Shown here: positions 860 to 38,254 of the stretch, piece by piece | How positions within the stretch are numbered: position 1 is the first letter of the stretch | How the letters are laid out: each line of letters opens with the position of its first letter | Source of the DNA: Anaerotruncus sp. | Lineage (GTDB): Bacteria; Bacillota; Clostridia; Oscillospirales; Ruminococcaceae | Length of the DNA: 38,324 nt | Reading direction: 5' to 3' | NCBI GenBank assembly: GCA_021770005.1 | Contig: JAETRV010000025.1 | Span: 1-38,324, forward strand | The notes under the pieces: generated by a model | Told to the model about the DNA's origin: nothing | The model's database searches: none | The model's input: only the letters and a program-made list of their open reading frames with translations | Program-made: the position numbers and the translations under genes

Positions 860-1293
860 TCCCCCTTGCAGCGGATGCTCCTTTCCAGCGTCACCGTTGT
901 CCCCTTCCCCTCTTTGGAAACGACCTTCACCCGGTCCATCAGGCTCTGCATCACTGCAAAGCCAAGGCCGGCGCGTTCCTCCTCGGGGGCAGAGGTATAC
1001 ATTGGTTCCATCGCCCGCTGGATATCCGGGATTCCGCAGCCTTTGTCACGCACCTTGATCTGAATGCGGCGGTCCGGATAGAGATTCGCAGATATGTAAA
1101 CGACCCCCAGGCGGTCGCGGTATCCATGTACAATGCAGTTGGTCACCGCTTCGCTGACCGCTGTCTTGATGTCCGCAAGCTCCTCGACCGTCGGGTCGAG
1201 CTGCGCTACAAATGCCGCGACTGCTGTGCGGGAGAATGCTTCGTTCACCGACCTCCCCTCAAATTGAACTTTCATCGCATTGATCGGTTTCAT
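856..1293 (-). CDS. spoIIAB: Anti-sigma-F factor / serine kinase SpoIIAB
   Basis: A 145-residue GHKL-type ATPase that binds sigma-F and phosphorylates SpoIIAA. Visible motifs are the N-box (AVSEAVTNCIVHGYRD, about residues 45-60), the G1 box (VRDKGCGIPD, about 81-90) and the G2 box (RAGLGFAVMQSLMD, about 108-121). The length matches the family. Its start overlaps the spoIIAA stop and its stop overlaps the sigF start, both as ATGA, so the three proteins should be made in linked amounts, as the partner-switching mechanism requires. Confidence 0.97.
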   Translation of the reverse strand: MKPINAMKVQFEGRSVNEAFSRTAVAAFVAQLDPTVEELADIKTAVSEAVTNCIVHGYRDRLGVVYISANLYPDRRIQIKVRDKGCGIPDIQRAMEPMYTSAPEEERAGLGFAVMQSLMDRVKVVSKEGKGTTVTLERSIRCKGE

Positions 1294-1721
1294 GCTTCCT
1301 CCCCTCCGATCTCCAGTGGGATTTCTTCCAGCTCTTCTTCCACGCTCCTGGTTTCCGCCATTTCCTCTTCCGAAGCAGGTTCCGCTGAAAGAACCTTCCG
1401 CCTACGCTGTTCCGGCTTGTCCAGAATTGCAAGACGGTCCAGCCCTGCAAGCATCATCACCTTTTTCAGGTGCCCTGCAATATTGACAAGATGCAGGCTT
1501 CCTCCCAGCTCCTGCATCAGTTTGTACCGTCCCATTACCAGACCGATCCCCGAGGAATCCATAAAGCTGACCTCTCGGAAATCCAAATCCAGCTCCTGCA
1601 CCTGCCCGGTCATAACCGCATTGTCGATCGCTTCACGCAATTCCTTTGCATTGTGATGGTCGATTTCACCGATCAGCCGCGCAATGCAGTATTCCTCGGC
1701 AATCTCAATTTGTACAGACAT
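1290..1721 (-). CDS. spoIIAA: Anti-sigma-F factor antagonist SpoIIAA, acidic tail
   Basis: STAS-domain protein of 143 residues. The motif MDSSGIGLVMGRYK at residues 54-67 contains the serine (S56 or S57) that SpoIIAB phosphorylates; the dephosphorylated form releases sigma-F. The start at 1721 is preferred because AGAAAGGATG precedes it at good spacing; the open frame continues upstream to 1877 but that part has no family similarity and crosses a terminator hairpin. Bacillus SpoIIAA is about 117 residues. Here an extra stretch from about residue 103, beginning with a basic RRRK and followed by a glutamate-rich tail, extends the protein. First gene of the operon. Confidence 0.93.
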   Translation of the reverse strand: MSVQIEIAEEYCIARLIGEIDHHNAKELREAIDNAVMTGQVQELDLDFREVSFMDSSGIGLVMGRYKLMQELGGSLHLVNIAGHLKKVMMLAGLDRLAILDKPEQRRRKVLSAEPASEEEMAETRSVEEELEEIPLEIGGEEA

Positions 1722-1772
1722 CGTTTCTACATCCTTTCTATTGTCGAACAGCTGCACACTACCCGAAAAAAT

Positions 1773-1803
1773 AAAAAGCTCTATCACTAGGATAGAGCTT
1801 TTT
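1773..1803 (-). terminator. Intrinsic terminator between the surface protein and spoIIA
   Basis: Perfect 13-bp inverted repeat AAAAAGCTCTATC / GATAGAGCTTTTT (1773-1785 with 1791-1803) with a 5-base loop. Reading on the minus strand the stem runs into TTTTTATTTTTT, so it should end transcripts from the upstream surface-protein gene and separate it from spoIIA. The spoIIA promoter must then lie in about 50 bases; I could not identify a convincing one. Confidence 0.85.
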
Positions 1804-1915
1804 GGATAAAAAGATTGTCGCAAATGGTCGGGCAGTGTGGATTTCTCAATGGGAGTCTGTTGCAGCGTCTCACACAAAACATAAAAGTTTCAAACAATCA
1901 GAGAGAGCAGCCCCA

Positions 1916-4900
1916 TTATGCCTTCCGGTATTTCCAGAACCAGATGCCGCCCATCGCTGCCGCCGCTGCGATTAAAAAGATCAGCAAAGCCGTTGTACCG
2001 CTGCCGCCAGTTTGTGTGGAATCGCTTATGGGCGTGGTTTCCGATTCATAGATATTCGGAATGTTTTTCTCCACGCCCTGTTCTGCCAGCTCTGAGGTCT
2101 CAGCAAGGCCCCGTTGGGGATGGGTGATCTCCGGCGTGCCTGCTGGCGTCAGAATGTGATCCGCAAGAACGGGTGCTGTTACCTCCCACACGCCGCCTGT
2201 CGTCGGATTCAGCTTGCTGGGGTCGTGGGCAGGAGTCTCAAACTTCCTACCTGCCAGGTAGGAGAGGGGATAGAAAATCCGGTTGGACTCATTCAGCGCC
2301 GCTTCGGACGGGATGGTAATCTTCTTTCCGCCGTTCCATGTGATCACCAGGGTGATTGCTTCACTCTTGCGCAGAGCATCCATCACGCGGGCGGGCAACC
2401 GGTCATAGCCGCGGGCGTTTACCTTGACGGTATCGCCGGGTTTCGCATGCTCGATGGTGTCCTGAACCTCTTTCCAGAAGGTATACTCGGTATTCCGGTA
2501 GCTGGAGCCGCCTTTGGAGGAGCTGTCCGACGACGAACCGCCATCTGTAGAGCCGCCGCCCGTGGAACCGTCACCTGTGGAGCCGCCGCCCGTGGAATTA
2601 TCGTCCGTGGAACCACCGGTTTTGTCATAGCCAATAGCATAGGTGGAGAATTTGCTGGCATAGATGGTCACCAGACCGGTACCAATCTCATACCGTTCAC
2701 CGGAGCCGCCGTTTGACAGAGCCTCTGTAACGCCGTCATGTGTCCGGTAGACGGTGATGCCAGGTTTACTGGTATCGAATGGAATCTTGATTTCAATGAT
2801 ATGATGGTTGCTGCCGCCAATATCGGTAGGATTCCCTTGGTCAACCTGTAGCATCAAACGAATATCCAGATAAAGCCCGATTTCCTTGCCCGACTGATCG
2901 GCGAAAGAGGCAACCGGTGTCTGGTTGTCCTGCTTGGTTTCTGATGCTACATGCAAAGCAACGGTAATGGATGTGCTGCCCTGCGGAATATCCTGTCCGG
3001 CAGCGATCTGTTCTACGCCGCCTGCGACGATAGCGGGAACCCCATTTTCTACCTTCACCTCACTGTTTTTCTTCTCTTCTGGTAGGGAGATATTCTGTTC
3101 CACCGCATTTCCATCTGTAAGTTCCACAAGGATGGTCATAAACTTTCCATCCTTCTCCGCCTTGACATTATAGAAACCGGGAATCATGCTGGTAAAACGA
3201 TATGATCCATCGGCGGTCGTTGTAACCGGAGCAACCCCGTCCACCGGTTTGCCGCCCCGCATCAGGGTGACGATTGCGCCTTCCACCGGCTGTTGATTGT
3301 CCGTTACCTCCCCGGAAATATCATAAGTATCGTCCACAACCTGTATGCTGAGTGCCTGCTGGACACTGCCTGCTGCATTGGAAGCGGTAACGGTAAAAAA
3401 GAAGGTTCCCTCTTCAGCAGGGGTTCCGCTGATAATGCCGGTCGTGCTGTCCAGCGTCAGCCCCTCCGGCAGCTTGCCGTCTGAAATACGCCAGGTAATC
3501 GGTTTTGTACCAGAAGCCGTCAGAGTCTGATGGTAGGGTTTCCCTGCCATACCGCTGGGAAGCTCCCCAATTGAAATAACCGGTGCAGTTTGCTCGATGG
3601 ATTCTGTTGCAGCCAGCTGCACTACATGTCCATCGCCGTCCTGTATCTCATAATCGCTGTTGTCGCTGCTGAAATATCCGGAAGCATCGGCGCTGTTCGC
3701 ACCGGTGACAGCGACCGGACTTTCCGCAGTGGGAACGGATGTCGTGGTGACGCCAAATTTTGCGCCCGCACGCAGCCCACCTGCTCCGACCAAGACAGTC
3801 GAGCCGGTTGGAAGATGGAGGTTGTTGCCCTCGGTGCCCTTGCGATTCCCTGTGACGATAGGGGAACCTGAGAGCGTGACCGTGCTGGACTTTACCACAA
3901 ACAGGCCGCCTCCGTTGCCAGCTGCTGTATTTCCAGTGATCTCACCCCCGGACAGGGCCAGCGTACCGCCCATGATGCAGACGCCGCCGCCCTGGGCGGT
4001 TGCGGCATGGTTGCCGCTGATCTCACCGGCGGATAGGGAGGCTTCCCCATCGCTGAAAATGCCGCCGCCGCTCAAAGCGTTGTTCCCGCTGATCTTACCG
4101 CCTGCCATGGTGAACGACGCACCCGGCATAGCATGTACGCCGCCGCCATTTCCGGCGGTATTGCAGCAGATCTCTCCGCCATACATGGCAAACGATGCGC
4201 CGGACTGTGCCAGATAAACGCCGCCGCCCGGGCTCCCGCTATTTTCATCCAAAGCCCGTCCTTCGTTTCCGGCGATGGTGCCGCCATACAGGTTCAGTGT
4301 GCCGTCCACCAATATGCCGGGGTTGTTGCCTGCGGAGTTCCCTCGCTTTGCCCCGGTGATTAGGCCGTTTGCAATCGTAACCGGTTTGCCGGTTGCCGGA
4401 TCGGTGATGGTGTGGCTGCCGCTGTCTCCGGCGCAGTCGCAGAGGCGCAGGGACGCACCCTGCTCCACATGGATAACCGGTTTCGCGATGACGCCGTTGG
4501 CCAGCGCCAGTTTATGCCCGTTCAGGCAGAGGTTCACCGCCCCTGTGACCGAAAGACTGTCGGTCAGGGTCACATCGCTGGAGAGGCAGACGTTCCCGCC
4601 CGGGAAAGCGCCGGTTCCATCCCATGCGGAAAAGTCAACCGGGTCGATGCTGCCGCATGCCGCGCTCATGTCGTGGGCGTGCTCGGGCGCGACAGGGGAA
4701 ACGGCGGTCACGGTGACAGGGTAGCCCGGCATGACAAAGGAGAATTTGCCGTCACCCGCGTCGTCCACTGGCACCGTATCCGAGCCGCCGGTTTTTGTCA
4801 CGATGATCCCCCCGGCCGCGCTCTCCCCGGAGATGGTGACCTTGGCCTTCTTGGACCGTTTGACCACGCCGGTTTGGTCGCCGACCTTCAGATTGTCCTT

Positions 4901-7882
4901 CAGGATGACTTCATAGGTGGGGATTTTCAACTCTTTTCCCTCAAGGATGATCTGGTCCTCATTGTCGGCGGTAAAATAGTCGGAGATTTCCGCATTGCCC
5001 ATCCGATCGGTCCAACCGCTTGTGAACACGGTATCCCTGCCGCCGGTCGAAACGCCGATGGAGGATGGTTCCATCCGGTCTACGATCTCCGCCACCGCCA
5101 GATCCTCCAGGTAAAGGTTCTGCTCCTTGCCGTTTCTGGTGTTTCCGTCGATCTTCGCGCTCCCCGAGAGGAACAGCTTGGCGGCAAGTTTCGGATCGGA
5201 CTCCCTTCCACTGATGCTTGTGGTGACAGCTACGCCGCCGCCCTCGTTTTCCAGGATCTCGCCGCCGCTCAGCCGGAAGACGCCTGATTCTTTATTGTAA
5301 GCGTTGCTTTGGACATAGACGCCGCCGCCAATGGTTCCGAAACTGACGGCGTTGCGGGAGATCTTACCACCGGTCATGGTCAGTTTACCGGTTTCCTTCA
5401 CGGCAATCCCGCCGCCGCCATTGTAGCTGCCCTCGTACCGGTTGTTGGTGACCTCGCCGCCATAGAAATTCATGGTGCCTTCCAGCGAAACGCCGCCGCC
5501 CTCTCCGCTGGACCGGTTGCCGATGATGCTGCCGCCGTAGAGGTTCACGGTATTCCTGGGGTCGATGCTGGAGATACCGCCGCCCCTGGTGCTGTAATTC
5601 CCAGCGACATTGCCGCCATACATATTCAGTGTACCGTTATAAATATAGCTCGAGTAGTGATCCAGAGAGATACCGCCCCGGTTGCCGGCGGAAGGGTTCT
5701 CCGTACCGCCGGTGATGACGCCTCCGGTCAGGGTGTCGTACTCCCCGCTGGGCGGATTCTCCGAGATGGTGTAGGTGGTGTAGTTTGCGTCCCACTGGCC
5801 ATAGTAGGTCTTGTTGGTGCTGTTGCAGTCGCAGAGGTTGAGTGTGCCGTACTCCTGCACCCGAACCACAGAGCCTTCCTGGTTATCCAGCTTCAGTTGA
5901 TGACCGTTGAGGCAGAGGTTCAGCACCACAGGGGTATCTTCCTCACCCCGAATGGACAGGCTTCTTGAGAGGAGGGTGTCGCCGGTGAGGACCGCATTGA
6001 CCACCGGCGTACTCATAGCGATCGTGCAGTCGGTGAGTGTTCCGCTCCATTCGGTATCGTAGGTGATATCGGTGTGGGAAGTGTGGTCGCCAACCGACAG
6101 GCTGCCGCCGCAGATGCAATGGGTGTGGGGGCCTGTGGTCCCGCCTGGCAAAATCTGGACCGAATAGTTCTTGCTGTTGCCCATGATGTCAGGCACATTT
6201 TCCAGATGATACGTGTCCGATTCATCCGCGGTAAAGCGATCGGAATAATCGTTGGTATCCTGAAAGTCTGTGACTTTTATCCCCTTTTTCTCATCTGGGA
6301 TATAGCGGGAGCGCACCCCGATCGGTGTGACAGGGTCCAGATTCTCGTCAACCGAAACCACCCTGTTCAGGGCCAGGTAAAGGTTGCTGGGTTCGCCTGC
6401 GCTGCCCTGGGTATTTCCCGAGATATTGATGTTGCCGGTGAGAGTGACCTCGCTCTTAGGGCCTACATACAGACCACCGCCGCCGACATTCCGCGCGTCC
6501 CCCAGGTGATGGTTGTTGAGAATCGCCGCATTGTCAGACATCTTGAATACGACCCGATCCGCTGTACCAGCAACGCTGTCCGCACCCCCTTCGAGCCGTA
6601 CACCGCCGCCATATCCGCTTGAATTGCGCAAGCCCGCGGTGTTGTTTCGTACGACCGCATTGCCGGACATCTCAAACGTCGTGACCGCGAGCACCTTACT
6701 CATCGAGCTGGCACTCACACCGCCGCCGCTCAGGCCAGCGGTATTGCCTACGATTGCTCCTCCATGCATATAAAAGGACGCATTTCTCTGCATGCCGGTA
6801 CCGTCGCTGTCGCCGCCAACCACATATACGCCCCCGCCATTCCCCGGCGCGTGGTTTCCCACAATATTGCCGCCATACATGTGGAAGGTGGCGCCCAGTT
6901 CCTGCATGCCCACAAAGATCCCGCCGCCGTTGCCGTAGTAAAGCGAACTGTTTGACGGGCTGACCCCTCCGGTGATGACGCCGCCGGTCAGGGTTTCGGT
7001 TCCGTTTGCTTCGTCCAACACCCACAGGCCATCGAGATTGGGGGTAAACTTGTGCTGTGTCTTTCCACAGTCGCAGAGGTTCAAGGTGGTCCTTGAGGCC
7101 AGCCGAATCACCGGGTGCGAACCGCTTCCCTTCAGCACATGGCCATTCAGGCAAAGATTGACCGTTGTGTCCGGGCCATAATTGCATGTGATTACATTCG
7201 ACAACTCCACATCATCGGTCAGGTAGAGATTGACGACACCGTCTTTGTCGCTATCGGTAAAATTGATGTCTGTGCCATCCCATGCCTCAAACGTGATCGT
7301 ATTTCCGGTCTCCGCACAGTCCACGCTCATTTCATGGATGTGGTCGCCCTCCAGCGTCATGAGCTGGTTGTTGAAGAAATCGAATAGGCTTTCAAAAACC
7401 TCCAGATGGATGAGCCGCTCCTTTTCCTTCTCGCTCAACGCCTCATAGGCTTCAAACGCCGCCTGTAGCCGGTCATAGATTTCCTGCTGTTGCTCTTTGG
7501 TCATTTCCTGCACCTGTTCCACCGTAGGCAGGGCGTCGATGAGCTGCTGTACCTCCTGTACTGCCGCGGCGGACTGCTTGCACTGCTCGCAGTTGGCCGG
7601 ATCAAAGATACAGGGGCTCCCCTCCACAGCGGGGGAGTAGCTGCACCCATCCGCGTGGTCGATCTCGCCATCGTCGTCGGTATCGGTGCAGCCCATGTCA
7701 CAGGGAACCTCCGGGGTGCCCTCGACATAGCCGCATTCCTCGTTGTGTTCCGTATGGTGTTCGCACGAACTGTTTACGCCGTTCGTGCCGCTATCCTGTA
7801 CGTCTTCGGCCCAGACGGTGGTCCCCATCTGGGAAACAACCATCGCTGCCGCCAGTATAAAACTGAAAATTCTTTTCCTCAT
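1916..7882 (-). CDS. Very large secreted beta-helix surface protein
   Basis: A 1988-residue cell-surface protein. The start at 7882 is chosen because AAGGAG lies 7 bases upstream and it opens directly on a signal peptide (MRKRIFSFILAAAMVVSQ, probable cleavage after VWA). Residues about 40-75 contain CEHHTEHNEECGY and an EF-hand-like DTDDDGEIDHAD. Three large modules follow, each with an NLCLNGH motif (near residues 241, 659 and 1121), an LCDC motif, LTGG(V/L)ITGG-type turns and many Gly-rich GNxxGxGGGV repeats, typical of a right-handed parallel beta-helix. Then come a putative Ig-like domain (about 1430-1517), a carboxypeptidase-regulatory-like fold (about 1518-1600), a Gly/Ser linker (about 1755-1795) and a C-terminal domain. 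The end has STQTG, a hydrophobic segment and WKYRKA, resembling a sortase signal without the usual proline. Adhesion or glycan binding is inferred only. Confidence 0.88.
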   Translation of the reverse strand: MRKRIFSFILAAAMVVSQMGTTVWAEDVQDSGTNGVNSSCEHHTEHNEECGYVEGTPEVPCDMGCTDTDDDGEIDHADGCSYSPAVEGSPCIFDPANCEQCKQSAAAVQEVQQLIDALPTVEQVQEMTKEQQQEIYDRLQAAFEAYEALSEKEKERLIHLEVFESLFDFFNNQLMTLEGDHIHEMSVDCAETGNTITFEAWDGTDINFTDSDKDGVVNLYLTDDVELSNVITCNYGPDTTVNLCLNGHVLKGSGSHPVIRLASRTTLNLCDCGKTQHKFTPNLDGLWVLDEANGTETLTGGVITGGVSPSNSSLYYGNGGGIFVGMQELGATFHMYGGNIVGNHAPGNGGGVYVVGGDSDGTGMQRNASFYMHGGAIVGNTAGLSGGGVSASSMSKVLAVTTFEMSGNAVVRNNTAGLRNSSGYGGGVRLEGGADSVAGTADRVVFKMSDNAAILNNHHLGDARNVGGGGLYVGPKSEVTLTGNINISGNTQGSAGEPSNLYLALNRVVSVDENLDPVTPIGVRSRYIPDEKKGIKVTDFQDTNDYSDRFTADESDTYHLENVPDIMGNSKNYSVQILPGGTTGPHTHCICGGSLSVGDHTSHTDITYDTEWSGTLTDCTIAMSTPVVNAVLTGDTLLSRSLSIRGEEDTPVVLNLCLNGHQLKLDNQEGSVVRVQEYGTLNLCDCNSTNKTYYGQWDANYTTYTISENPPSGEYDTLTGGVITGGTENPSAGNRGGISLDHYSSYIYNGTLNMYGGNVAGNYSTRGGGISSIDPRNTVNLYGGSIIGNRSSGEGGGVSLEGTMNFYGGEVTNNRYEGSYNGGGGIAVKETGKLTMTGGKISRNAVSFGTIGGGVYVQSNAYNKESGVFRLSGGEILENEGGGVAVTTSISGRESDPKLAAKLFLSGSAKIDGNTRNGKEQNLYLEDLAVAEIVDRMEPSSIGVSTGGRDTVFTSGWTDRMGNAEISDYFTADNEDQIILEGKELKIPTYEVILKDNLKVGDQTGVVKRSKKAKVTISGESAAGGIIVTKTGGSDTVPVDDAGDGKFSFVMPGYPVTVTAVSPVAPEHAHDMSAACGSIDPVDFSAWDGTGAFPGGNVCLSSDVTLTDSLSVTGAVNLCLNGHKLALANGVIAKPVIHVEQGASLRLCDCAGDSGSHTITDPATGKPVTIANGLITGAKRGNSAGNNPGILVDGTLNLYGGTIAGNEGRALDENSGSPGGGVYLAQSGASFAMYGGEICCNTAGNGGGVHAMPGASFTMAGGKISGNNALSGGGIFSDGEASLSAGEISGNHAATAQGGGVCIMGGTLALSGGEITGNTAAGNGGGLFVVKSSTVTLSGSPIVTGNRKGTEGNNLHLPTGSTVLVGAGGLRAGAKFGVTTTSVPTAESPVAVTGANSADASGYFSSDNSDYEIQDGDGHVVQLAATESIEQTAPVISIGELPSGMAGKPYHQTLTASGTKPITWRISDGKLPEGLTLDSTTGIISGTPAEEGTFFFTVTASNAAGSVQQALSIQVVDDTYDISGEVTDNQQPVEGAIVTLMRGGKPVDGVAPVTTTADGSYRFTSMIPGFYNVKAEKDGKFMTILVELTDGNAVEQNISLPEEKKNSEVKVENGVPAIVAGGVEQIAAGQDIPQGSTSITVALHVASETKQDNQTPVASFADQSGKEIGLYLDIRLMLQVDQGNPTDIGGSNHHIIEIKIPFDTSKPGITVYRTHDGVTEALSNGGSGERYEIGTGLVTIYASKFSTYAIGYDKTGGSTDDNSTGGGSTGDGSTGGGSTDGGSSSDSSSKGGSSYRNTEYTFWKEVQDTIEHAKPGDTVKVNARGYDRLPARVMDALRKSEAITLVITWNGGKKITIPSEAALNESNRIFYPLSYLAGRKFETPAHDPSKLNPTTGGVWEVTAPVLADHILTPAGTPEITHPQRGLAETSELAEQGVEKNIPNIYESETTPISDSTQTGGSGTTALLIFLIAAAAAMGGIWFWKYRKA

Positions 7883-7896
7883 ATCGTTTCTCCTTT

Positions 7897-8061
7897 TAGG
7901 GCTTGTTTGAAAATAGAGAGATTGACGGATTTTTCGCAAGAGACGAGCAGCTGCAAGAAGAAAAGCGCAGAAATACTCTATGTATTCCGAGCATTTTCGA
8001 CGCAGCAGATGCCGTTCCTTGTAGAAAAAGACGGTAATTTCGATTTTTCAAACAGCCCCTA
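7897..8061. mobile_element. 165-bp inverted-repeat element (MITE-like)
   Basis: The ends are inverted repeats: TAGGGCTTGTTTGAAAAT (7897-7914) and, inverted, TAGGGGCTGTTTGAAAAA (8044-8061), identical at 15 of 18 positions and each bounded by TA. The interior holds the repeat core also found at 45-104. No transposase is encoded. Its left edge is 15 bases upstream of the surface-protein ATG, immediately next to the ribosome binding site, so it forms most of that gene's 5' leader. Confidence 0.7.
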
Positions 8062-8107
8062 GATTCTGTGTTGCAGTGCTGCCGGTTCAGACGAAGAATA
8101 TGTAAAA

Positions 8108-8307: not shown

Positions 8308-8670
8308 TCACAGTGATGGCGGGACATAGCTTGGAATCAAATCAACATCAAAGAATAGATTGTATAGCTCATCTAATAGGTCAGGCATAGACATATTCCT
8401 GTAATACCATAGCAGATGGTGTTCCCTTTGGTTCAGCGTAATCAGCACAGGGAGCTTGCCGCAAGACGGATAAGGGACGGGTGTTACAGCAACGCAGATA
8501 CCGGTACTGCCGAACGATGCATCCAATACCGCTTTCAGATGCTGCAAAATGCTGTATAGATCATCGCTTGCCTCTATAGGGCAGTCGGTGACTGCATCTG
8601 TCAGGTCGCCCCTATGTTTTGCAGCGAAATCTGTCATAGCGCTCATGCTCCTTTTCGATCCAACATACAA
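8308..8670 (-). CDS. Unknown 120-residue protein, likely LytTR target
   Basis: I do not recognise a family. The TTG at 8670 is preferred because a full AAAGGAGG sits 7 bases upstream; ATG codons at 8646 and 8637 are alternatives, the latter also with an AGGAG at good spacing. There is no signal peptide and no clear membrane segment. The middle is hydrophobic (GICVAVTPVPYPSCGKLPVL) and the C-terminal part is aromatic and acidic (LLWYYRNMSMPDLLDELYNL), ending YVPPSL. The gene follows the sensor kinase on the same strand, but has its own promoter with a LytTR-type direct repeat matching the one before the response regulator. It is therefore probably a regulated output of that system. Its function is open. 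Confidence 0.7.
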   Translation of the reverse strand: MYVGSKRSMSAMTDFAAKHRGDLTDAVTDCPIEASDDLYSILQHLKAVLDASFGSTGICVAVTPVPYPSCGKLPVLITLNQREHHLLWYYRNMSMPDLLDELYNLFFDVDLIPSYVPPSL

Positions 8671-8726
8671 CGCTTTCCCTCCTTTATACACATGGGAGAA
8701 TGGCAAAATGTTTGCAATATGTCTAA

Positions 8727-8791
8727 ATTATAGCAAATAAGAGCCCCCATTGGGGGCTCTTATCGAAAACGTCTTTTGAAACTGCGAAAAC
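8727..8791 (-). promoter_or_regulatory. LytTR-type promoter of the unknown 120-residue gene
   Basis: Reading on the minus strand: GTTTTCGCA (8783-8791), 12 bases, GTTTTCGAT (8762-8770), 29 bases containing a palindrome, then TATAAT (8727-8732). Two 9-mers separated by 12 bases (21-bp period) is the known layout of LytTR-domain binding sites. There is no -35 consensus, as expected for an activator-dependent promoter. The distal 9-mer begins directly after the sensor-kinase stop codon. The same layout recurs at 11090-11154. Confidence 0.72.
8739..8761. terminator. Palindrome over the -35 region / possible kinase terminator
   Basis: Perfect 10-bp inverted repeat AAGAGCCCCC / GGGGGCTCTT with loop ATT. 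It could terminate the sensor-kinase transcript (followed by TTATTTG on the minus strand, a poor T-tract) or serve as an operator, because it covers the -35 region of the next promoter and has a counterpart at 11102-11124. Confidence 0.55.
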
Positions 8792-8793
8792 AG

Positions 8794-10098
8794 TTATGCT
8801 GGAATATCCCTCAGTACAGCTTTAAGGACAAACTCCTGCCCTTGTACCTCCACGCTGAACCAACCGTCGTATCGATGTACCGTCTTCTGAATACTCAGCA
8901 GGCCGAAGCCGTGTCCCTGCTCCTTTTTGCTGCTGGCAGGAAGGGTACCGCGCCGGAATCCCATCGCGCCGGAAATAGGATTGATTACGGTGATGACGAT
9001 CCGCCCGTCCGTCCGGGTTGCTTGTACCTTCAAGGAGCGCGGAATATCCTGGGGGAGCTTTTCCACGGCCTCTATGGCATTTTGCAGCGCGTTGCCAAAG
9101 ATTACGCACAGATGCAGCGGGTCTACAATGTTCAGAACCGGCAGGTGTGTCTGACATTGGAACCCTATGCCTTGTTTTTCGCAGATCGCCTCGTAATGGT
9201 TGAGCAGGGCGTTCACCGCGCCGCTGATACAATACGGGTGATAGATCGAGGTCGGGAGAGAATCCTCCATAGCCGCAACATAGGAAGATATCCCGTCTAT
9301 ATCCTTTTGACCACACAGGCTGCTTAGGGTGTTGACATGGTGGCGCAGGTCGTGAAGATGGATGCGGTTTTCCTGAATCTGGGCTGTCAGCTCGGCATAA
9401 TACCGCTCGGACAGCGCCAGCTGGGCTTCCAGCTCCTTAGTCCGTTCAGCCGCGGCCTGTACCCGGTTCAGAGAAACGACCAGCATGGATAAAACCACGC
9501 CGCTGCTCACGCATACCATCAGCAGATTGATATGCTCCCCTTGCCGGTGGAAGATCAGATCGGGATAGATGGTCATCAAGAGGATCATCATCTCCTGTAA
9601 AAATACCGTCATAGCCAGCGGCGTCCACGGCACCCCTTCCACATTCAGCAAGCGTTTAAATCGTGGAATCAGGAACAGCACCGCAAACACGGTGCCCAAA
9701 AGCACGCCAATCATCCGTACAGTGAGCATCCCCATATTGGCTGTATCGAATGGGAAGAACCAGGACCCCACCACATAGCCCGCTGTGGAAGCAAGAACAG
9801 AGGCAACATCGCATGAGAAGAAGATGCACCAGAACTGCCCGCCTCTCTGACGGGCAACAAACAGCCCCACAATGATCTGGGGAAACCAATAGACCACACC
9901 AAAAATCATAATTGCGGTTTCCGGATCGAACAGAAGCGCCAGAACACCACATCCTCCCAGCAAAGCTAGCCCTACCGTATTAAAGAGCAAAAAAGTGGCC
10001 CTTCTGGAAAACCGGGAGTGCAAAGCCGCTGCCATTGTGTTTAGCTGGCAAAAGATCAACACTGTATTAAAAATTAAGTTGGTGATGTGCAGGCTCAT
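8794..10098 (-). CDS. GHKL-type sensor histidine kinase (AgrC-like)
   Basis: A 434-residue membrane kinase. About six hydrophobic segments fill residues 1-210. A coiled linker (AAAERTKELEAQLALSERYY) leads to the phosphoacceptor region HDLRHH at 249-254. The ATPase domain shows an N-box (FGNALQNAIEAV, 334-345) and a G2 box (GHGFGLLSI, 395-403). This combination is typical of AgrC/quorum- or peptide-sensing kinases paired with LytTR regulators. Its ATG overlaps the response-regulator stop in an ATGA. Neither an AgrB protease nor a convincing AgrD peptide gene is visible nearby, so the signal is unknown. Confidence 0.9.
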   Translation of the reverse strand: MSLHITNLIFNTVLIFCQLNTMAAALHSRFSRRATFLLFNTVGLALLGGCGVLALLFDPETAIMIFGVVYWFPQIIVGLFVARQRGGQFWCIFFSCDVASVLASTAGYVVGSWFFPFDTANMGMLTVRMIGVLLGTVFAVLFLIPRFKRLLNVEGVPWTPLAMTVFLQEMMILLMTIYPDLIFHRQGEHINLLMVCVSSGVVLSMLVVSLNRVQAAAERTKELEAQLALSERYYAELTAQIQENRIHLHDLRHHVNTLSSLCGQKDIDGISSYVAAMEDSLPTSIYHPYCISGAVNALLNHYEAICEKQGIGFQCQTHLPVLNIVDPLHLCVIFGNALQNAIEAVEKLPQDIPRSLKVQATRTDGRIVITVINPISGAMGFRRGTLPASSKKEQGHGFGLLSIQKTVHRYDGWFSVEVQGQEFVLKAVLRDIPA

Positions 10099-10826
10099 AC
10101 TTCCCTTCCTTTTCCGGTCAATGCATATTCCACAAAAAAGCGGTAGTAGGTATCCGCCATCACCTTGCGATCCCGTATACGGATGGGGATTGCCCTCCCA
10201 TCCTTGAGGACGAAATCCTCATTCACATCGGCGATATGCTCCATATTGACAAGGAAGCTCTGATGACAGCGGAGAAAGCGTTCGTCTAGCCGGGTGGCCA
10301 GTTCTCCTAGCTTTTCGCTGCTCCCGATCACCTCGCCGCTGGCCAGATGAATGCGGATGCTGTGATTGTCGCTCTCGATAAAAAGGATCTCTTCCAGAAA
10401 AAGATATCTGTGCCGCCGGTTCGAACGGACGCAAACACGCTGCTTGTCCGGCTGAATAAGTACCCGCTCCAGCAGCTTTTGCAGCTTCTCTTCCTGCAAA
10501 GGCTTAAGCAGATAGCCGGCCGCCTCCACATCATAGCTCTCCACGGCGAAATCCGGCGAGGTGGTGAGAAAGATAATGGGCATTTTTTGTCCCTGCTCCC
10601 GTAACTTTTGAGCAATTTCTATACCGGTAAATCCATCCAAAAAAATATCTAAAAATAGCAGGGAAAAATCCTGATATCCCTCCTCCAAATCTGCCAACAG
10701 GGCTTCCCCGGAAAAATATGTAGCAATCCGTATTTTCTCTCCACGGCCACACAATAATTTTTCCAATACATCTCGAAGGTGGTATTGATCGTCCTGCACA
10801 TCCTCACAAATCCCAATATTCAGCAC
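10095..10826 (-). CDS. LytTR-family response regulator (AgrA/LytR-like)
   Basis: A 243-residue two-component response regulator. The start is taken at GTG 10826 because AGAAAGGA lies just upstream; the open frame extends to an ATG at 10865 without a ribosome binding site. The receiver domain covers about 1-125, with the acidic pair E8-D9 and phospho-acceptor D60 in LLFLDIFLDG. The LytTR DNA-binding domain covers about 135-235 (EEILFIESDNHSIRIH, RCHQSFLVNMEHI). It overlaps the kinase gene by four bases. The promoter at 11090-11154 carries a perfect LytTR-type direct repeat, so autoregulation is likely, with a repeat element inserted between promoter and gene. Confidence 0.92.
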   Translation of the reverse strand: MLNIGICEDVQDDQYHLRDVLEKLLCGRGEKIRIATYFSGEALLADLEEGYQDFSLLFLDIFLDGFTGIEIAQKLREQGQKMPIIFLTTSPDFAVESYDVEAAGYLLKPLQEEKLQKLLERVLIQPDKQRVCVRSNRRHRYLFLEEILFIESDNHSIRIHLASGEVIGSSEKLGELATRLDERFLRCHQSFLVNMEHIADVNEDFVLKDGRAIPIRIRDRKVMADTYYRFFVEYALTGKGREV

Positions 10827-10894
10827 ATTTACATTCCTTTCTATGTTTCGTGTTTCTGTATGCACCTTTGCATGCTACCTGTTAGCCTAATGAA

Positions 10895-11051
10895 ATGCCT
10901 GTTTCATATCTAAAGTTTGAGTCGATTTCTTGTGCCCGCTGCGGTTCGCAGTGCGGCAGCAGTCAGGTGAATTGCCGCCCAAAGGGCGGCAAGAGGGAAC
11001 TTTTTCTCTTAATGATAAAGTTCCCTGCAAAAGATTCTGAACAGGCCCTAA
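10895..11051. repeat. Structured intergenic repeat, copy A
   Basis: About 157 bp related to 13702-13892. Shared blocks are CCTGTTTC-TATCTAAAG at one end, GCCGCCC-(3)-GGGCGGC (10974-10990), a second hairpin AGGGAACTTT/AAAGTTCCCT (10994-11003 with 11017-11026), and AACAGG near the other end. It lies between the LytTR promoter and the response-regulator start and would be transcribed as its 5' leader. Confidence 0.7.
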
Positions 11052-11089
11052 TACAAATACTGCTCAAGGGCATTCTATTCCGAACTTTA

Positions 11090-11154
11090 AGTATATCAAA
11101 TAAGGGCCCCTATGTGGCGCCCTTTGCGAAAATGGCTTTTGAAATTGCGAAAAT
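11090..11154 (-). promoter_or_regulatory. LytTR-type promoter of the two-component operon
   Basis: On the minus strand: ATTTTCGCA (11146-11154), exactly 12 bases, ATTTTCGCA again (11125-11133), 29 bases containing an inverted repeat, then TATACT (11090-11095). The two 9-mers are identical. Spacing to the -10 is the same 29 bases as in the promoter at 8727-8791. It points to the response-regulator gene about 265 bases downstream. The stretch 11155-11343 holds only a weak 36-codon frame (starting ATG at 11265) and a 7-bp inverted repeat, ATCAAGT/ACTTGAT (11266-11292). Confidence 0.75.
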
Positions 11155-11343: not shown

Positions 11344-12138
11344 TCAAAAGGATTCCTGTGCTTTCTCGTTTTTCTGCCCGTTCTTTTGGGAAGGGTCCGA
11401 CGCAATCTCCAAATAAGCCTTCAGATAATCAATCCGTTCTCCATCCTCTTTTGCGGTGAGCAGATAACGGGCCAACAGGCATCCGGTACGGTAACGGGTT
11501 TGGAGACGGGTCAGCGTCTGGATCACATCACTTTCGTAATCTCGGTCCACTTTTTCTCGGATCAAAAATGTGACAAAGTGGGTTCCCGGACGTTTTTTCC
11601 AAAGCAGGTTTTGCCCGCTGTACTCCGGAGAAACAATGATGCTTCGAACCTCGGTAGACATATCCTGCGTATTGAAGTACCGCACATAGCAGGAGGGGTC
11701 CTGGACATATTGTGTAAGTTTGTCCCGCTCGAAGTAATCAAAGGTAGCTACTGCATCAAAAGGGACTTCTTCCTCGGAAATGCCGAGCTGCATCAACCGC
11801 TGCACAGCTTCCAGATGCTCGAGCTGGTTCTGGGTGCGGCGGTACATCTGGCCATAGCTGCGGATTTTCTGTTTCAGGTGGAGCTGGACCTCCTCTATCT
11901 GGCGGGTGTACTGTTCAAGCGTGCACTCCTCCATCTCATGCACATTGGAAACCGGAATGCCCAGATTTCGAAAAAAAATCACATTTGCGATTCTCATGAG
12001 ATCCCGGATGGTATATTGACGGTATCGGTTGGCCCCTTTTTTTACCGAAAACAGTCCCTTTTCCTCCCAAAACCGGAGGGTAGGCGCCGGAATATTAAGC
12101 AGCTGGGCAATTTCACTAATTGAGAACAATTTATTCAT
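11344..12138 (-). CDS. MerR-family transcriptional regulator
   Basis: A 264-residue regulator starting at ATG 12138, chosen because it opens directly on the winged-helix domain (FSISEIAQLLNIPAPTLRFW, with YRQYTIRDLMRIANVIFFR as the second half). The usual MerR dimerisation coiled coil follows (about 75-120, EEVQLHLKQKIRSYGQMYRR). The C-terminal 130 residues are a probable effector-binding domain that I cannot assign. It is divergent from the YfcC transporter and the amidohydrolase. The shared promoter region has a classic MerR operator, so it most likely activates the transporter promoter and, because its own -35 overlaps the operator, controls itself. Confidence 0.9.
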   Translation of the reverse strand: MNKLFSISEIAQLLNIPAPTLRFWEEKGLFSVKKGANRYRQYTIRDLMRIANVIFFRNLGIPVSNVHEMEECTLEQYTRQIEEVQLHLKQKIRSYGQMYRRTQNQLEHLEAVQRLMQLGISEEEVPFDAVATFDYFERDKLTQYVQDPSCYVRYFNTQDMSTEVRSIIVSPEYSGQNLLWKKRPGTHFVTFLIREKVDRDYESDVIQTLTRLQTRYRTGCLLARYLLTAKEDGERIDYLKAYLEIASDPSQKNGQKNEKAQESF

Positions 12139-12163
12139 ACGATTCACCGAAAAGTTTTTCTCT

Positions 12164-12192
12164 ATTATACCAGTTTCTGCATTGACATTCAA
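12164..12192 (-). promoter_or_regulatory. Promoter of the MerR regulator gene
   Basis: TTGAAT (12187-12192), 17-base spacer, TATAAT (12164-12169) on the minus strand. The -35 lies inside the palindrome bound by MerR-type proteins, which would give autoregulation. Confidence 0.65.
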
Positions 12193-12212
12193 GCGGCTTG
12201 AATGTGTATAAT
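12182..12212 (+). promoter_or_regulatory. MerR-type promoter with 19-bp spacer and palindrome
   Basis: TTGACA (12182-12187), a 19-base spacer and TATAAT (12207-12212). Inside lies the perfect inverted repeat ACATTCAAG-CGG-CTTGAATGT (12185-12205). Both hexamers are consensus but 2 bp too far apart, the known hallmark of promoters that MerR proteins activate by DNA distortion. It drives the transporter starting at 12267. Confidence 0.88.
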
Positions 12213-12266
12213 TTGTTAAGAAGCGCGCTGTAACCATCAAAATCTTTTAAGAAATGAGGAGAAGGT

Positions 12267-13670
12267 ATGGAGACTGCTAAGAAAAAACGCTTTCAATTCA
12301 AGATGCCCCACAACTATGTGATCCTGATCACGATCATGTTCCTGATGCTGATCCTGACGCACATCATCCCTGCCGGCGAATACCAGCGGGTGGAGGATCC
12401 GGTATCGGGCAAGATGGTTGTTGTGCCGGGGTCCTATGCAACGATTGAGGCGGATGCCCCGGGACTGTTCGATCTCTTCCTAGCGTTGGAACAGGGATAT
12501 GTGGAAGCTGCTGACATCATGTTCCTGATCATCTTCGCTTACGGCTTTGTCTATGTATTGACCAAAAACGGAACCATGGATGCGGCACTGGGTACGATGG
12601 TCAAAAAGGTGGGCAATCAGGTACAAATTCTGATTCCCATTACCATGCTGATTCTGGGTATCCTGGCCTCCACCATGGGTATCTATGAAGAGGTGTATGG
12701 TCTGTTCCCGGTATTTGTAGGCATCTTCCTGGCCTTGGGCTATGACTCGCTGGTGGGTGGCGCTACCATCTTCCTCGGCGTGTCAATCGGTTATGCCGCA
12801 GGTACCACCAATCCTTATAACGTGGCGGTTGCGCAGGATGTGGCTGGTGTAGACCTTTATTCGGGCATGTGGATGCGCTGGCTGGTCTTCTTCGTATTCG
12901 AAGCGGTCACCATCGTCTATCTGATGCGGTATGCTCGCAAGGTGAAGGCTGACCCCACCAAATCGGTCCTGTACGGCCTGGACATGGATCAGGTAGAACG
13001 CAAGAATCTGGAGGACCTGAACGAGGTCAAGATGACCGGCCGCCAGAAGCTCTGCCTGCTGCTCTTCTTTGGGACCATCGCATTTCTTCTGTATGCGGTG
13101 CTCAAGCTCGGTTGGTATGTGGATGAGATTTCCGCCCTGTTCCTCATGGCCATGGTTGCTGCCGGGATCATCAGCGGCTATTCTGCCACCGAAATCTGCA
13201 AGACCTTTATCGAATCCACAAAATCCATGGTATCCTCCATGCTGGTGGTCGGTTTCACCCGTGGTATTACCATCCTGATGAAACAGGGCTGCATCACCGA
13301 TACTATCGTGTACGGCTTGGTCAGCCTGTTGGAGGGCGGCAGCAAATACATCGCCGCTTACGGTATGCTGATTGTGCAGAACCTGATTAAGTTCTTTATC
13401 AATGGTTCTACCAGCCAGGCAACTATTACTATGCCGATCATGGCGCCCACTGCGGAGCTGGTCGGCCTGAGCAAGCAGATCGCGGTCATGGCTTACCAGT
13501 TCGGAAACGGCTTCGCAGATTTCTTCTGGCCCACCGGCTGTGCGCTCTGCTGTGGACTGATGGGCGTGCCGCTCAACAAATGGTACAAATTTGCAACCCC
13601 GCTGTTCCTGATCTTTGTTGTGTTGGAATTCGCGTTCCTGACCTTCGCAGTGGCCATCGGCTATTGCTAA
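12267..13670 (+). CDS. YfcC-family (C4-dicarboxylate carrier-like) permease 1
   Basis: A 467-residue integral membrane transporter of the YfcC/DcuC-like anaerobic carrier family, with about 11-12 hydrophobic segments. Family features include MPHNYVILITIMFLMLILTH then IIPAGEY near the N terminus, GTTNPYNVAVAQ around residues 178-189, and NGSTSQATITMPIMAP around 378-393. An AGGAGAAGG ribosome binding site precedes the ATG. It is the first gene downstream of the MerR-type promoter. The substrate is not readable from sequence; amino acids, peptides or dicarboxylates are possible. About 60% similar by eye to the second permease at 15240-16631. Confidence 0.9.
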   Translation: METAKKKRFQFKMPHNYVILITIMFLMLILTHIIPAGEYQRVEDPVSGKMVVVPGSYATIEADAPGLFDLFLALEQGYVEAADIMFLIIFAYGFVYVLTKNGTMDAALGTMVKKVGNQVQILIPITMLILGILASTMGIYEEVYGLFPVFVGIFLALGYDSLVGGATIFLGVSIGYAAGTTNPYNVAVAQDVAGVDLYSGMWMRWLVFFVFEAVTIVYLMRYARKVKADPTKSVLYGLDMDQVERKNLEDLNEVKMTGRQKLCLLLFFGTIAFLLYAVLKLGWYVDEISALFLMAMVAAGIISGYSATEICKTFIESTKSMVSSMLVVGFTRGITILMKQGCITDTIVYGLVSLLEGGSKYIAAYGMLIVQNLIKFFINGSTSQATITMPIMAPTAELVGLSKQIAVMAYQFGNGFADFFWPTGCALCCGLMGVPLNKWYKFATPLFLIFVVLEFAFLTFAVAIGYC

Positions 13671-13701
13671 ATCTAGAAAACCTGTCCCGTCTTTTTCTGT
13701 A

Positions 13702-13892
13702 AGAACCTGTTTCGTATCTAAAGCTTTACTCAATTTTTCTCGAAAAATTGCGGGGTCGAGGGGCAGAGCCCCCCGCCGCGCGCACGCGGCGGAATACTTT
13801 ATCCTGTAAGTGTAAATTGCCGCCCTTTGGGCGGCAAGAGGGGGCTTTTTACAAGAGAAAAAGCCCCCTGAGAAAAATGCTAAACAGGTTCT
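13702..13892. repeat. Structured intergenic repeat, copy B (MITE-like)
   Basis: A 191-bp element bounded by AGAACCTGTTT (13702-13712) and its exact inverse AAACAGGTTCT (13882-13892). Internally it holds four hairpins: CAATTTTT/AAAAATTG, CCGCCGCG/CGCGGCGG, GCCGCCC/GGGCGGC and AGGGGGCTTTTT/AAAAAGCCCCCT. A 26-base GC-rich block at 13750-13775 recurs inverted at 28227-28252. No coding capacity. Together with the terminator at 13963 it explains the gene-free stretch 13671-14025. Confidence 0.75.
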
Positions 13893-13962
13893 AATGGAAA
13901 TACCGAGGCAGCAGCTTCGGGCAGGAAACAGGTTTTCACACGCACATGAAAAAATAGAGGGC

Positions 13963-13993
13963 AAAAAGGATATGGGATACCCGTATCCTTTTT
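13963..13993 (+). terminator. Terminator hairpin upstream of the amidohydrolase
   Basis: AAAAAGGATATGGG / CCCGTATCCTTTTT, 14 bp with one mismatch and a 3-base loop, ending in five T. It probably ends or attenuates the permease transcript 33 bases before the amidohydrolase start codon. Confidence 0.65.
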
Positions 13994-14025
13994 GCAGCGT
14001 CTCACGGCAGAAAGGAGAATGTTGC

Positions 14026-15159
14026 ATGCTGATTCAAAATGGAAATGTCCTGCTCTTTGAGGAGGGCGGATTTGTCGTACGGGACATCCGGGTGGAAGAG
14101 GGGAAAATCGCGGAGATTGCTCCTTCCCTCTCCCCCAAAGAGGGCGAGACCTGCTATGATGCCTCCGGGAAATATGTAACCCCCGGGATGATTGATGCCC
14201 ACAGCCACATCTGCATCAGCGAAGAAGGGATGGGCGATGTCGGGGACGACTGCTGCGATTACTCCGATGCATTGACCCCTGAGCTGGAAGTGCTGGATGG
14301 CCTGTATCCCTTTGACCGGGCCGTCGCGGCTTCGGTTCGGTCCGGCGTCACCTGTGCCTGCGTGTGTCCAGGCAGCGATGGCGTCATAGGGGGCGTGTCT
14401 TCGGTGATCCGGCTGTCCGGCTCGGTGGCGGACCAAATGCTGGTGCGCCGGTATGCAGCCATGAAATGCAGCTTGGGCGAGAACCCCAAGTGCGCCAAAC
14501 ATGGATTTGCCTCCCGTATGGGGGTGGCATGGCAGTTCCGCAAATGCCTGGAAGATGCATTGGACTACCGTCATAGCAAGGAGGAAGCGCAGGCAGCCGG
14601 CAGCTATTTCAAAAAAGACCGGGGCATGGAACATATGCTGCTGGTATTGGATAAAAAAATGCCGATCCATGTGCATGCCCACCGTTCAGACGATATCTGC
14701 ACCGCAGTCCGGCTGGCACAGGAGTACGACCTGGACATGGTTCTGGTGCATGGCACCGATGCGATCCCTGTGGTGGATTATCTGGCGCAGTTCCCCTATC
14801 CGGTGATCGTTGGCCCTGGCATGACCCCGCGTTCCAAACATGAGACATGGGATAAAACCTATGAAACCGCTGGGATCCTGCATAAGGCAGGCATCAAGGT
14901 ATGCATTACCGCTGACCACGACGTGACCCCGCTCTACTTCCTGTCGGTCTATGCCGGGCTGGCAGTGCGCTATGGGCTGGACGAGATCGAGGGCTTGAAG
15001 GCCGTCACAATCAACCCCGCTCAGGTCCTGGGGGTCGATGACCGCAAAGGCCAGCTCAAAGCCGGCCTGGACGCGGACATTGTCATCTGGTCCGAGCATC
15101 CGTTTGCCTGCAAAGCGAATCCAGAGCAGGTATTTCTGGAGGGTATTGCGGTCTGTTAA
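14026..15159 (+). CDS. Metal-dependent amidohydrolase
   Basis: A 377-residue cytoplasmic hydrolase of the amidohydrolase superfamily, imidazolonepropionase/dipeptidase-like. The metal-binding HxH is H59-H61 (TPGMIDAHSH), with further likely ligands in HVHAH (215-219), VHGT (H242) and ITADHD (D297). The C terminus has the usual AVTINPAQVLGV...GLDADIVIW ending. The ATG at 14026 is chosen for its AGAAAGGAG and because the family fold begins there; the open frame extends upstream through the terminator. Lying between two YfcC permeases, it probably hydrolyses a ring or amide compound they import. The substrate is unknown. Confidence 0.88.
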   Translation: MLIQNGNVLLFEEGGFVVRDIRVEEGKIAEIAPSLSPKEGETCYDASGKYVTPGMIDAHSHICISEEGMGDVGDDCCDYSDALTPELEVLDGLYPFDRAVAASVRSGVTCACVCPGSDGVIGGVSSVIRLSGSVADQMLVRRYAAMKCSLGENPKCAKHGFASRMGVAWQFRKCLEDALDYRHSKEEAQAAGSYFKKDRGMEHMLLVLDKKMPIHVHAHRSDDICTAVRLAQEYDLDMVLVHGTDAIPVVDYLAQFPYPVIVGPGMTPRSKHETWDKTYETAGILHKAGIKVCITADHDVTPLYFLSVYAGLAVRYGLDEIEGLKAVTINPAQVLGVDDRKGQLKAGLDADIVIWSEHPFACKANPEQVFLEGIAVC

Positions 15160-15171
15160 ATCGGGAAGGTG

Positions 15172-15208
15172 CCATCGCGGGCTTCAAAGGATTTGGGGCC
15201 TGCGGTGG
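15172..15208 (+). other. Intercistronic hairpin before permease 2
   Basis: CCATCGCGGGC (15172-15182) pairs with GCCTGCGGTGG (15198-15208) in 11 pairs including two G-U. No T-tract follows, so it is more likely an mRNA processing or stability element than a terminator. Confidence 0.4.
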
Positions 15209-15239
15209 TTTCACCGTATGATGTAAGGAGTGTATCCGC

Positions 15240-16631
15240 TTGGGTAATCTGAAAAATAAGCTGTTACGCATCAAAATGCCGCATACGTATGTCCTGCTTA
15301 CGATGATCCTGCTCTCGGTTGTAGTGTTGACCTATCTGATCCCTGCCGGTGAATACGAGCGGGTGTTGGACGAGGTGAGTGGAAAAATGGTGGTGCTCCC
15401 GGAATCATTCCATTATGTGGAGGGAATCCGGCCCGGTTTTTTTGATGTTTTTCTGGCGCTTCAGCATGGTTATGTCAGCGCGGCAAACATCCTGTTCCTG
15501 ATTGTGTTTGCCTATTCTTATGTCTACCTTCTTACCGAAAACGGGACGCTGAATCGGGCGATTCAGGTGCTGGTCCGGTGTCTGGGCAGCCATACCTATC
15601 TGCTGATCCCGGTGTGTATGCTCCTGTTTGGCCTGCTGGGAGCGACCTTGGGCATTTTCGAGGAGACTTACGGCCTTGTCCCGGTGTTCATCGGAATTAT
15701 GACCGCTCTGGGCTATGACCCGCTGGTTGGCGGCGCAATGGTCTATGTGGGGGTGGCTACCGGTTTTGCCGCCGCATTGACCAACCCGTTCTCGGTGGGG
15801 ATCGCCCAGAGCATCGCAGAGGTGCCGATCAACTCCGGCCTTGGGTACCGGGTTGTCATCTTTGCAGTATTCCAGACGGTGGCCATCTGGTACGTGATGC
15901 GGTATGCGCGCCGGGTCAAAGCCGACCCTACCAAATCTGTGCTCTATGGGGAGCCCTATGAGGTACAAATCCCGGCCCCCAAGGAAGAAGATGATGTATT
16001 TACTCTTCGTCAAAAGCTGTGCCTGCTCCTGTTCTTTGTGACGATCGGTATTTTGCTGTATGGCACGACCCAGCTGGGATGGTATATTGACGAGATTGCC
16101 GCCATGTTCCTGATGATGATGGTGATTACCGGTGTGGTTGGAGGATACAACGCAACACAAATCTGCCAAAGTTTCATCGCTTCTACCAAAAGCGTCGTCC
16201 CCTCTATTCTGGTCATCGGTTTTACACGGGGGATCCTGCTCACGATGCAGAACGCTATGATCTCCGACACCATCGTGTATGGTCTGGCGCGTATGCTCAA
16301 CTACTCAAACCGGGTCTTTTCTGCGGTGGGGATGTTGATTTTACAGAATATCATCAACTTTTTCATCACCGGTTCTTCCAGTCAGGCGACCATCACCATG
16401 CCTATTATGGCACCGGTGGCGGACATTGTCGGGCTCAGCCGACAGACAGCGGTCCTCTGCTATTGCTTCGGCGACGGCTTTTCTGATATGTTCTGGCCGA
16501 CTGCCTGTTCCCTGGAATGTGGCTTGATGGGGATATCTTTGGATAAGTGGTACAAATTCATGGCTCCCCTGTTTGCGATTATGGTTGTGTTGCAGCTGGT
16601 CTTTATTGGAATATCGGTTTATGTATATTGA
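15240..16631 (+). CDS. YfcC-family (C4-dicarboxylate carrier-like) permease 2
   Basis: A 463-residue paralogue of the permease at 12267. Shared landmarks are KMPHTYVLLT and LIPAGEYERV near the N terminus, ALTNPFSVGIAQS in the middle, MRYARRVKADPTKSVLYG (almost identical in both) and TGSSSQATITMPIMAP near the C terminus. The start is a TTG with AAGGAG nine bases upstream. It follows the amidohydrolase by 80 bases and is closed by a strong terminator. Two diverged copies around one hydrolase suggest uptake of related substrates, or uptake of substrate and export of product. Confidence 0.9.
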   Translation: MGNLKNKLLRIKMPHTYVLLTMILLSVVVLTYLIPAGEYERVLDEVSGKMVVLPESFHYVEGIRPGFFDVFLALQHGYVSAANILFLIVFAYSYVYLLTENGTLNRAIQVLVRCLGSHTYLLIPVCMLLFGLLGATLGIFEETYGLVPVFIGIMTALGYDPLVGGAMVYVGVATGFAAALTNPFSVGIAQSIAEVPINSGLGYRVVIFAVFQTVAIWYVMRYARRVKADPTKSVLYGEPYEVQIPAPKEEDDVFTLRQKLCLLLFFVTIGILLYGTTQLGWYIDEIAAMFLMMMVITGVVGGYNATQICQSFIASTKSVVPSILVIGFTRGILLTMQNAMISDTIVYGLARMLNYSNRVFSAVGMLILQNIINFFITGSSSQATITMPIMAPVADIVGLSRQTAVLCYCFGDGFSDMFWPTACSLECGLMGISLDKWYKFMAPLFAIMVVLQLVFIGISVYVY

Positions 16632-16664
16632 TTTCTATCAAAAACGCAAGGGCTCGTAAATAGA

Positions 16665-38115: not shown

Positions 38116-38196
38116 TCAGTGTTTAATGGTGAAATGTGGGAAGACCTTGCTGGAGCCGCCAAAAAGATTCACAGATAGCCGAAACGCCCTAAGTGG

Positions 38197-38254
38197 GCGT
38201 CCGCCGGAGATCGCCTCCCGGCGCTGATGATGGCAGGCGAGAAAGGAAAATATT
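38197..38254 (+). promoter_or_regulatory. 58-nt leader motif, copy 2
   Basis: Starts GCGTCCGC, folds as CGCCGGAG/CTCCCGGCG, continues GGCGCTGATGATGGCAGG and ends AGAAAGGA before the next start codon. It is preceded by a further hairpin CGCCC-TAAGT-GGGCG (38185-38199). Confidence 0.65.

Follow-up and report, generated by a model that had tools for sequence, protein, structure and literature searches.

Matching LytTR-type promoters on either side of a two-component operon in Anaerotruncus sp., and a third copy of the site in a genome of the same genus

The 38,324-nucleotide stretch of Anaerotruncus sp. DNA analysed here (the window) contains a real and specific pair of like promoter regions, sites A and B, which are the sole exact matches to their common pattern in the 2.93 Mb genome and both of which flank one LytTR operon. 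We consider it probable (roughly 60%) that they are activator-dependent promoters of an autoregulated LytTR two-component system with one adjacent target. Layouts of this kind are known, whereas neither the target protein nor the palindrome found in both promoters has been characterised. The sites define a sharp candidate operator for an uncharacterised LytTR system, and, as the genome has only two such promoters, the output of the system, one small protein of an unnamed family, is directly testable. Along the minus strand, a MerR-type gene (12240-11344) is followed by site A, the response regulator, the kinase, site B and a small gene (8670-8308), with these features:

11125..11154, minus strand: putative operator of site A, ATTTTCGCA-N12-ATTTTCGCA, with repeats at 11154-11146 and 11133-11125
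11102..11124, minus strand: imperfect palindrome of site A, AAGGGCGCCACATAGGGGCCCTT, covering the -35 position
11090..11098, minus strand: extended -10 of site A, TGATATACT
10934..11051, minus strand: interspersed repeat in the response-regulator leader, from a genome match search
10095..10865, minus strand: response regulator with receiver (PF00072) and LytTR (PF04397) domains
8794..10098, minus strand: sensor kinase with GHKL domain PF14501 (Pfam), AgrC-like by that domain
8762..8791, minus strand: putative operator of site B, GTTTTCGCA-N12-GTTTTCGAT, with repeats at 8791-8783 and 8770-8762
8737..8763, minus strand: perfect 27-bp palindrome of site B, 13-nt arms with 1 nt between them
8727..8735, minus strand: extended -10 of site B, TGCTATAAT
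8308..8670, minus strand: putative target gene (120-aa protein), TTG start at 8670 with Shine-Dalgarno AAAGGAGGG; the mechanical ORF begins at 8706

Both sites have the geometry of LytTR direct repeats, that is, repeats of 9-10 bp with a period of about 21 upstream of a promoter. A reading of the letters without database searches (the sequence-only reading) had reported 9-mers 12 bases apart before the response regulator and before the 120-residue gene, with 29 bases between the proximal repeat and the -10; this was reproduced exactly, both sites lying on the minus strand and the -10 hexamers being TATACT at 11095-11090 (A) and TATAAT at 8732-8727 (B). The known binding of LytTR domains to 9-bp repeats spaced by about 12 bp likewise agrees with operators described in two published accounts (PMC6193735, PMC2766830). 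The exact repeat in A is 10 nt long (period 21), and the pair in B agrees at only 7/9 positions. The second repeat of B is degenerate because the palindrome takes in its last two bases. The operator of B begins 2 nt past the kinase stop codon. In an ungapped comparison A and B are identical at 51/65 bases: 8/9 in the first repeat, 10/12 in the N12 spacer, 6/9 in the second repeat, 22/29 in the gap and 5/6 in the -10. The spacers of A, B and a third site, found in the same-genus genome G002 (see below), have TTTCAAAAG in common, and ATTTGNTAT is also shared by all three.

It is this likeness, rather than the repeat of A alone, that constitutes the strong evidence. Exact 9-mer repeats with period 21 occur in the 38-kb window at site A and also at ~17294 and 30539; therefore, the repeat of A by itself is modest evidence. 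Elsewhere in the window the best ungapped 65-bp match to A reached 30 (minus strand) or 32 (plus strand) identities and that to B 32 or 35, respectively; the best match to A in six 1-Mb Markov sequences was 33-35 of 65. TTTTCGCANTTTCAAAAG, with up to 3 mismatches allowed, was found in the window only at A and B (shuffle mean 0.10). A scan of the whole genome (155 contigs with 2.93 Mb in total, completeness 96.5%), which the sequence-only reading had proposed, left A and B as the only sites and yielded no third member. The 27-bp pattern used for it was written from A and B and thus matches them by construction, so that the absence of others is what counts: there was no further exact match, and one at 3 mismatches. 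Similarly, a sequence model made from these two sites and that of G002 scored 83.8 bits at A and 80.9 bits at B, values that are high because both belong to the model, and nothing else in the genome exceeded 13.8 bits.

Between operator and -10 both sites contain a palindrome. In A its 9-nt arms pair at 89%, and the RNA hairpins folded to -14.8 kcal/mol (A), -20.7 kcal/mol (B) and -7.6 kcal/mol (G002). One pair of the palindrome is changed on both sides between A and B, from G-C to A-T (positions 4 and 20 of the 23-mer). A terminator scan flagged the G002 palindrome as terminator-like and neither A nor B. The palindrome most likely acts as a terminator-like insulator, and that of site B stands where transcription of the kinase gene might also terminate. 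The presence of this element at both sites poses the question of how such promoters are protected against read-through or are gated.

Two other explanations involve this element. That a second dimeric regulator, bound to the palindrome, represses or gates both promoters while the LytTR protein serves as activator is quite improbable. In its favor, each of the three sites has a dyad covering the -35 position (CGCC/GGGG for A, CCCCC/GGGGG for B, CCCC/GGGG for G002), and a run of G stands 11 nt before each of the three -10 hexamers; however, the outer arms are unconserved in G002, and no candidate repressor was found. Somewhat less improbable, though still unlikely, is that the shared stretch arose by copying of an intergenic repeat or a terminator and involves no regulator. 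Intergenic repeats are abundant in these genomes, the palindrome resembles terminator stems (as do some of the weak model matches elsewhere, and the G002 copy is listed as terminator-like), and all three elements come after a gene read in the same direction. Against this, the genome holds two copies only, the likeness (by eye) does not extend beyond the first repeat on one side and the -10 on the other, the two-sided change keeps the palindrome paired, and each site has an extended -10. A mobile repeat as the origin of A and B was set aside in view of the two copies and their sharp ends.

No good -35 hexamer was found: with spacers of 15-19 nt the best TTGACA-like hexamer agreed at 3/6 positions in A, 2/6 in B and 4/6 in G002, and the three promoters therefore look like extended -10 promoters that would require an activator. 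Neither the proposed -10 of A nor that of B was among the elements given by a promoter scan. The scan offered another reading at A, TTGATA-16-TAGAAT (11099-11072, minus strand), whose TTGATA overlaps the proposed extended -10 and which has no equivalent at B, as well as TTGATA-16-TATACT in G002; its totals were 5 against 4.4 expected in the window stretch and 3 against 1.2 expected in the G002 stretch. At E up to 1, the interspersed repeat in the response-regulator leader had 49 matches in G002 and 55 in the genome of the window; the counts include the query and pieces at the level of chance, and scoring was limited to 40 candidates per genome. The palindrome, the missing -35 box and this leader repeat are features beyond those of the sequence-only reading.

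The response regulator has a receiver-LytTR architecture (PF00072, E 1.5e-16; PF04397, E 7.5e-15) and matches the structures of ComE and AgrA by sequence. Its true start, as read from the DNA, is likely the GTG at 10826. The translation carries FLRCHQS, a DNA-contact motif of the FhRhHRS type with Q where that motif has R and AgrA has N; AgrA has FFRCHNS, and its LytTR domain is described as a dimer on direct repeats (PMC4227749). The kinase and regulator genes overlap by 4 bases. Among eight neighbouring proteins scanned with Pfam, no AgrB/AgrD-type peptide genes were recognised.

From this arrangement we infer the following course of events. The membrane kinase would sense a signal and the regulator would become phosphorylated; its phosphorylated dimer would bind the two direct repeats, which lie one period of 21, or about two helical turns, apart, and would recruit RNA polymerase to an extended -10 promoter that has no usable -35. 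Site A would thus provide positive autoregulation of the regulator-kinase operon, and site B would drive the adjoining 120-aa gene. The palindrome between operator and -10 would insulate the promoter from read-through, most clearly at B, directly past the kinase stop.

Several characterised systems resemble this scheme. The HdrRM/BrsRM systems of Streptococcus mutans have 9-bp repeats 12 bp apart (9-12-9) just ahead of the promoter of the operon, an extended -10 in several cases, and autoregulation, which is proposed here too (PMC6193735). They differ in pairing a regulator with an inhibitory membrane protein instead of a receiver-type regulator with a kinase, and in repeats that are mostly ACCACTTAC-like, unlike those of A and B; the promoters there are given with a -35, and the passages on them mention no palindrome. 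The distance from repeat to -10, 29, 29 and 30 in A, B and G002, is below most of the values calculated from the S. mutans table, which are 27-33 with four of five at 31-33 (PMC6193735). The streptococcal SilA-SilB pair is likewise a LytTR two-component system with two direct-repeat promoters, a period of 21 and an AT-rich spacer, the comparison being one of layout and spacing; the SilA operator is described as 10-11-10, and a spacer one base longer or shorter abolished activity (PMC2766830). SilA-SilB has a peptide signal, SilCR, whereas none was recognised at the window locus. Extended -10 elements are given for several LytTR promoters across the two accounts (PMC6193735, PMC2766830). In Staphylococcus aureus a dimer of AgrA occupies direct repeats before two promoters of one locus, P2 and P3, which also have poor core promoters; however, the proximal repeats there are centred near -60, those of A and B at about -46 from the inferred start, and in P2 and P3 a -35 box is present, at 18 and 20 nt from the -10 (PMC4227749).

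Beyond the genome of the window, the 27-bp pattern with at most one mismatch was found in 4/396 genomes of the family, including the window's own and G002. With up to 3 mismatches, 61 genomes gave 44 matches against 47 for a reversed control; such matches are meaningless, and therefore only exact ones were used in that scan. There was no exact match in viral contigs. At E <= 0.001 the sequence model, run with stricter filters that lose weak matches, found 11 of the 396 genomes: the window's own, G002 and nine with weak matches (19.9-25.2 bits). All nine, including G014, were inspected, and none convincingly has the full arrangement; several of the matches are terminator-like, and the rest, G072 apart, look like chance. 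The match in G072 (L176:1501-1568, 24.3 bits) resembles the site in degenerate form; it contains a C/G-rich stretch as well as TTGCTATAAT and precedes what may be a membrane-protein gene.

No true orthologue of the regulator was found, and the site is absent beside all 80 relatives compared: the best model score in 82 loci (these 80 and two loci with target homologues) was 13.8 bits, and the two nearest relatives (52% and 51% identical) have no TTTTCG on either strand in 500 bases upstream. Other repeats of 9-mers (at least 8/9 identical) do stand upstream of the relatives and, in favor of a LytTR geometry, are most frequent at period 20 (18 loci) and period 21 (15 loci); each of the 17 remaining periods tried from 13 to 31 had 2-9 loci, 5.1 on average; the test covered 76 of the 80 relatives and up to 350 bases upstream, and the loci are related, so no probability is attached to it.

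The third site lies in G002, where the 27-bp pattern is matched exactly at C1:743032-743058. Its operator has 28/30 bases as in A and 24/30 as in B, with 30 bases to its -10, and its model score is 78.6 bits (it is part of the model, hence high by construction). The comparison proposed in the sequence-only reading, which took loss of the repeats in related genomes as a refutation, thus comes out divided: beside the regulator they are not conserved, and the site as such is conserved in G002. The site is 250 bp past the gene of a GH2 glycosidase and is oriented towards one for a VTT-domain protein; no convincing reading frame was seen downstream, Rfam gave nothing in the region, and no LytTR gene was found near it. 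Just after the site comes an apparently non-coding stretch of 190 bp. The window's genome has a counterpart with 80% identity on contig C57 and another, with 74% identity over 95 bp, on contig C89; the sequence model finds no site on either contig. The copies of this stretch lie in unlinked places:

L155:9785-9974 and L207:7814-8004: the two copies of the 190-bp stretch
L208:3905-3999: partial repeat

In G002 nine proteins matched the regulator at E <= 1e-5, the best being 37-38% identical (one, on C18, aligns over the receiver only, and another, on C9, is cut by a contig end), and none matched the kinase at E <= 1e-20. For the MerR gene beside site A there is a counterpart of 90% identity in G002, where the DNA matches the window in three pieces within 11408-16632 at 84-86% (MerR, antiporter and amidohydrolase genes). 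No synteny towards the two-component system was seen within the 19.5 kb compared. As synteny stops at 11408, everything from the two-component system onward is absent from that place in G002. A site apparently conserved without its regulator is, judged by sequence comparison, the main result against a simple one-regulator reading.

The question of which regulator owns the operator follows from this site. As G002 has it without a close relative of the regulator or the kinase, and as it is absent in 80 relatives, another regulator may share the operator. A stronger form, which we consider doubtful, is that the operator belongs to a different regulator common to both genomes and that the two-component system is a cross-regulated target. 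Besides the strong third site, G002 has counterparts, at 83-89% identity, of three further LytTR-type regulators encoded in the window's genome, which could fill this role; against it, the best score of a site consensus in 11 loci holding 12 such regulators in both genomes was 17/25, and both sites in the window's genome flank one LytTR operon. Just as tentatively, the three sites may represent a composite module, in which a LytTR-type activator site stands at a fixed distance from a palindrome covering the -35 position (terminator-like insulator or second operator). Such a module would be maintained as one piece in unlinked places and would serve several regulators of the genus, an apparently non-coding transcript in G002 being among its uses. 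For the autoregulated system with one local target, which the sequence-only reading had put forward, the geometry, the uniqueness in the genome and the flanking position speak in favor; the G002 site without a close regulator and the 80 relatives without the site speak against it, and binding of the regulator is putative. At L156:7813-10689 and L184, G002 also has two near-identical LytTR-type regulators in tandem plus a third copy where a contig ends; upstream of each stands a longer direct repeat, TCTGCATGAGATGT, of period 20.

The putative target had no match in Pfam, NCBIfam, PADLOC or PHROGs and one weak match among solved structures (E 0.34), and no homologues were found in plasmids or viral contigs. 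Its structure predicted alone had a mean pLDDT of 52.3, too low for a fold search, which was therefore omitted. Among 149 relatives it occurs in its own genome only, and among 394 genomes of the order clear homologues were found in G694 (36% identity, E 2.8e-12) and G731 (33%, E 2e-7), both belonging to one other family; 14 further matches were at E 0.003-0.1 only. The homologue genes are:

L223:8872-9210 and L224:8911-9243: genes for proteins of 110-112 aa, between AAA-type and CobT/VWA-type genes

At both loci the flanking genes have 604-611 and 715-720 residues, and the upstream gene reads like a single-strand DNA-binding protein; AAA_5, CobT/VWA and single-strand DNA-binding assignments come from a scan of the G731 neighbours, those in G694 being judged by size and reading only. 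Given these two homologues in another family, with their AAA-type and CobT/VWA-type neighbours, the target is no orphan. A three-way alignment has 24 invariant columns, and the protein would be a stand-alone member of a small unnamed family that elsewhere accompanies an AAA-VWA pair, possibly on mobile elements.

Several minor observations concern the rest of the window. A gene for a 2007-aa surface-type protein (He_PIG, CarboxypepD_reg; 173-7939, minus strand) adjoins those for a sigma factor, an HATPase_c_2 protein and a STAS protein. By eye, like stretches, CTAGGRGCTGYTTGAAAAATCGAAA..CCGTCTTTTTCTACAA on the minus strand, were seen at 8017-8066 of the window and at L016:1737-1785, and could mark where a mobile element ends. 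Finally, a type II hammerhead ribozyme (Rfam RF02276, 49.3 bits) is located at 38177-38242 on the plus strand.
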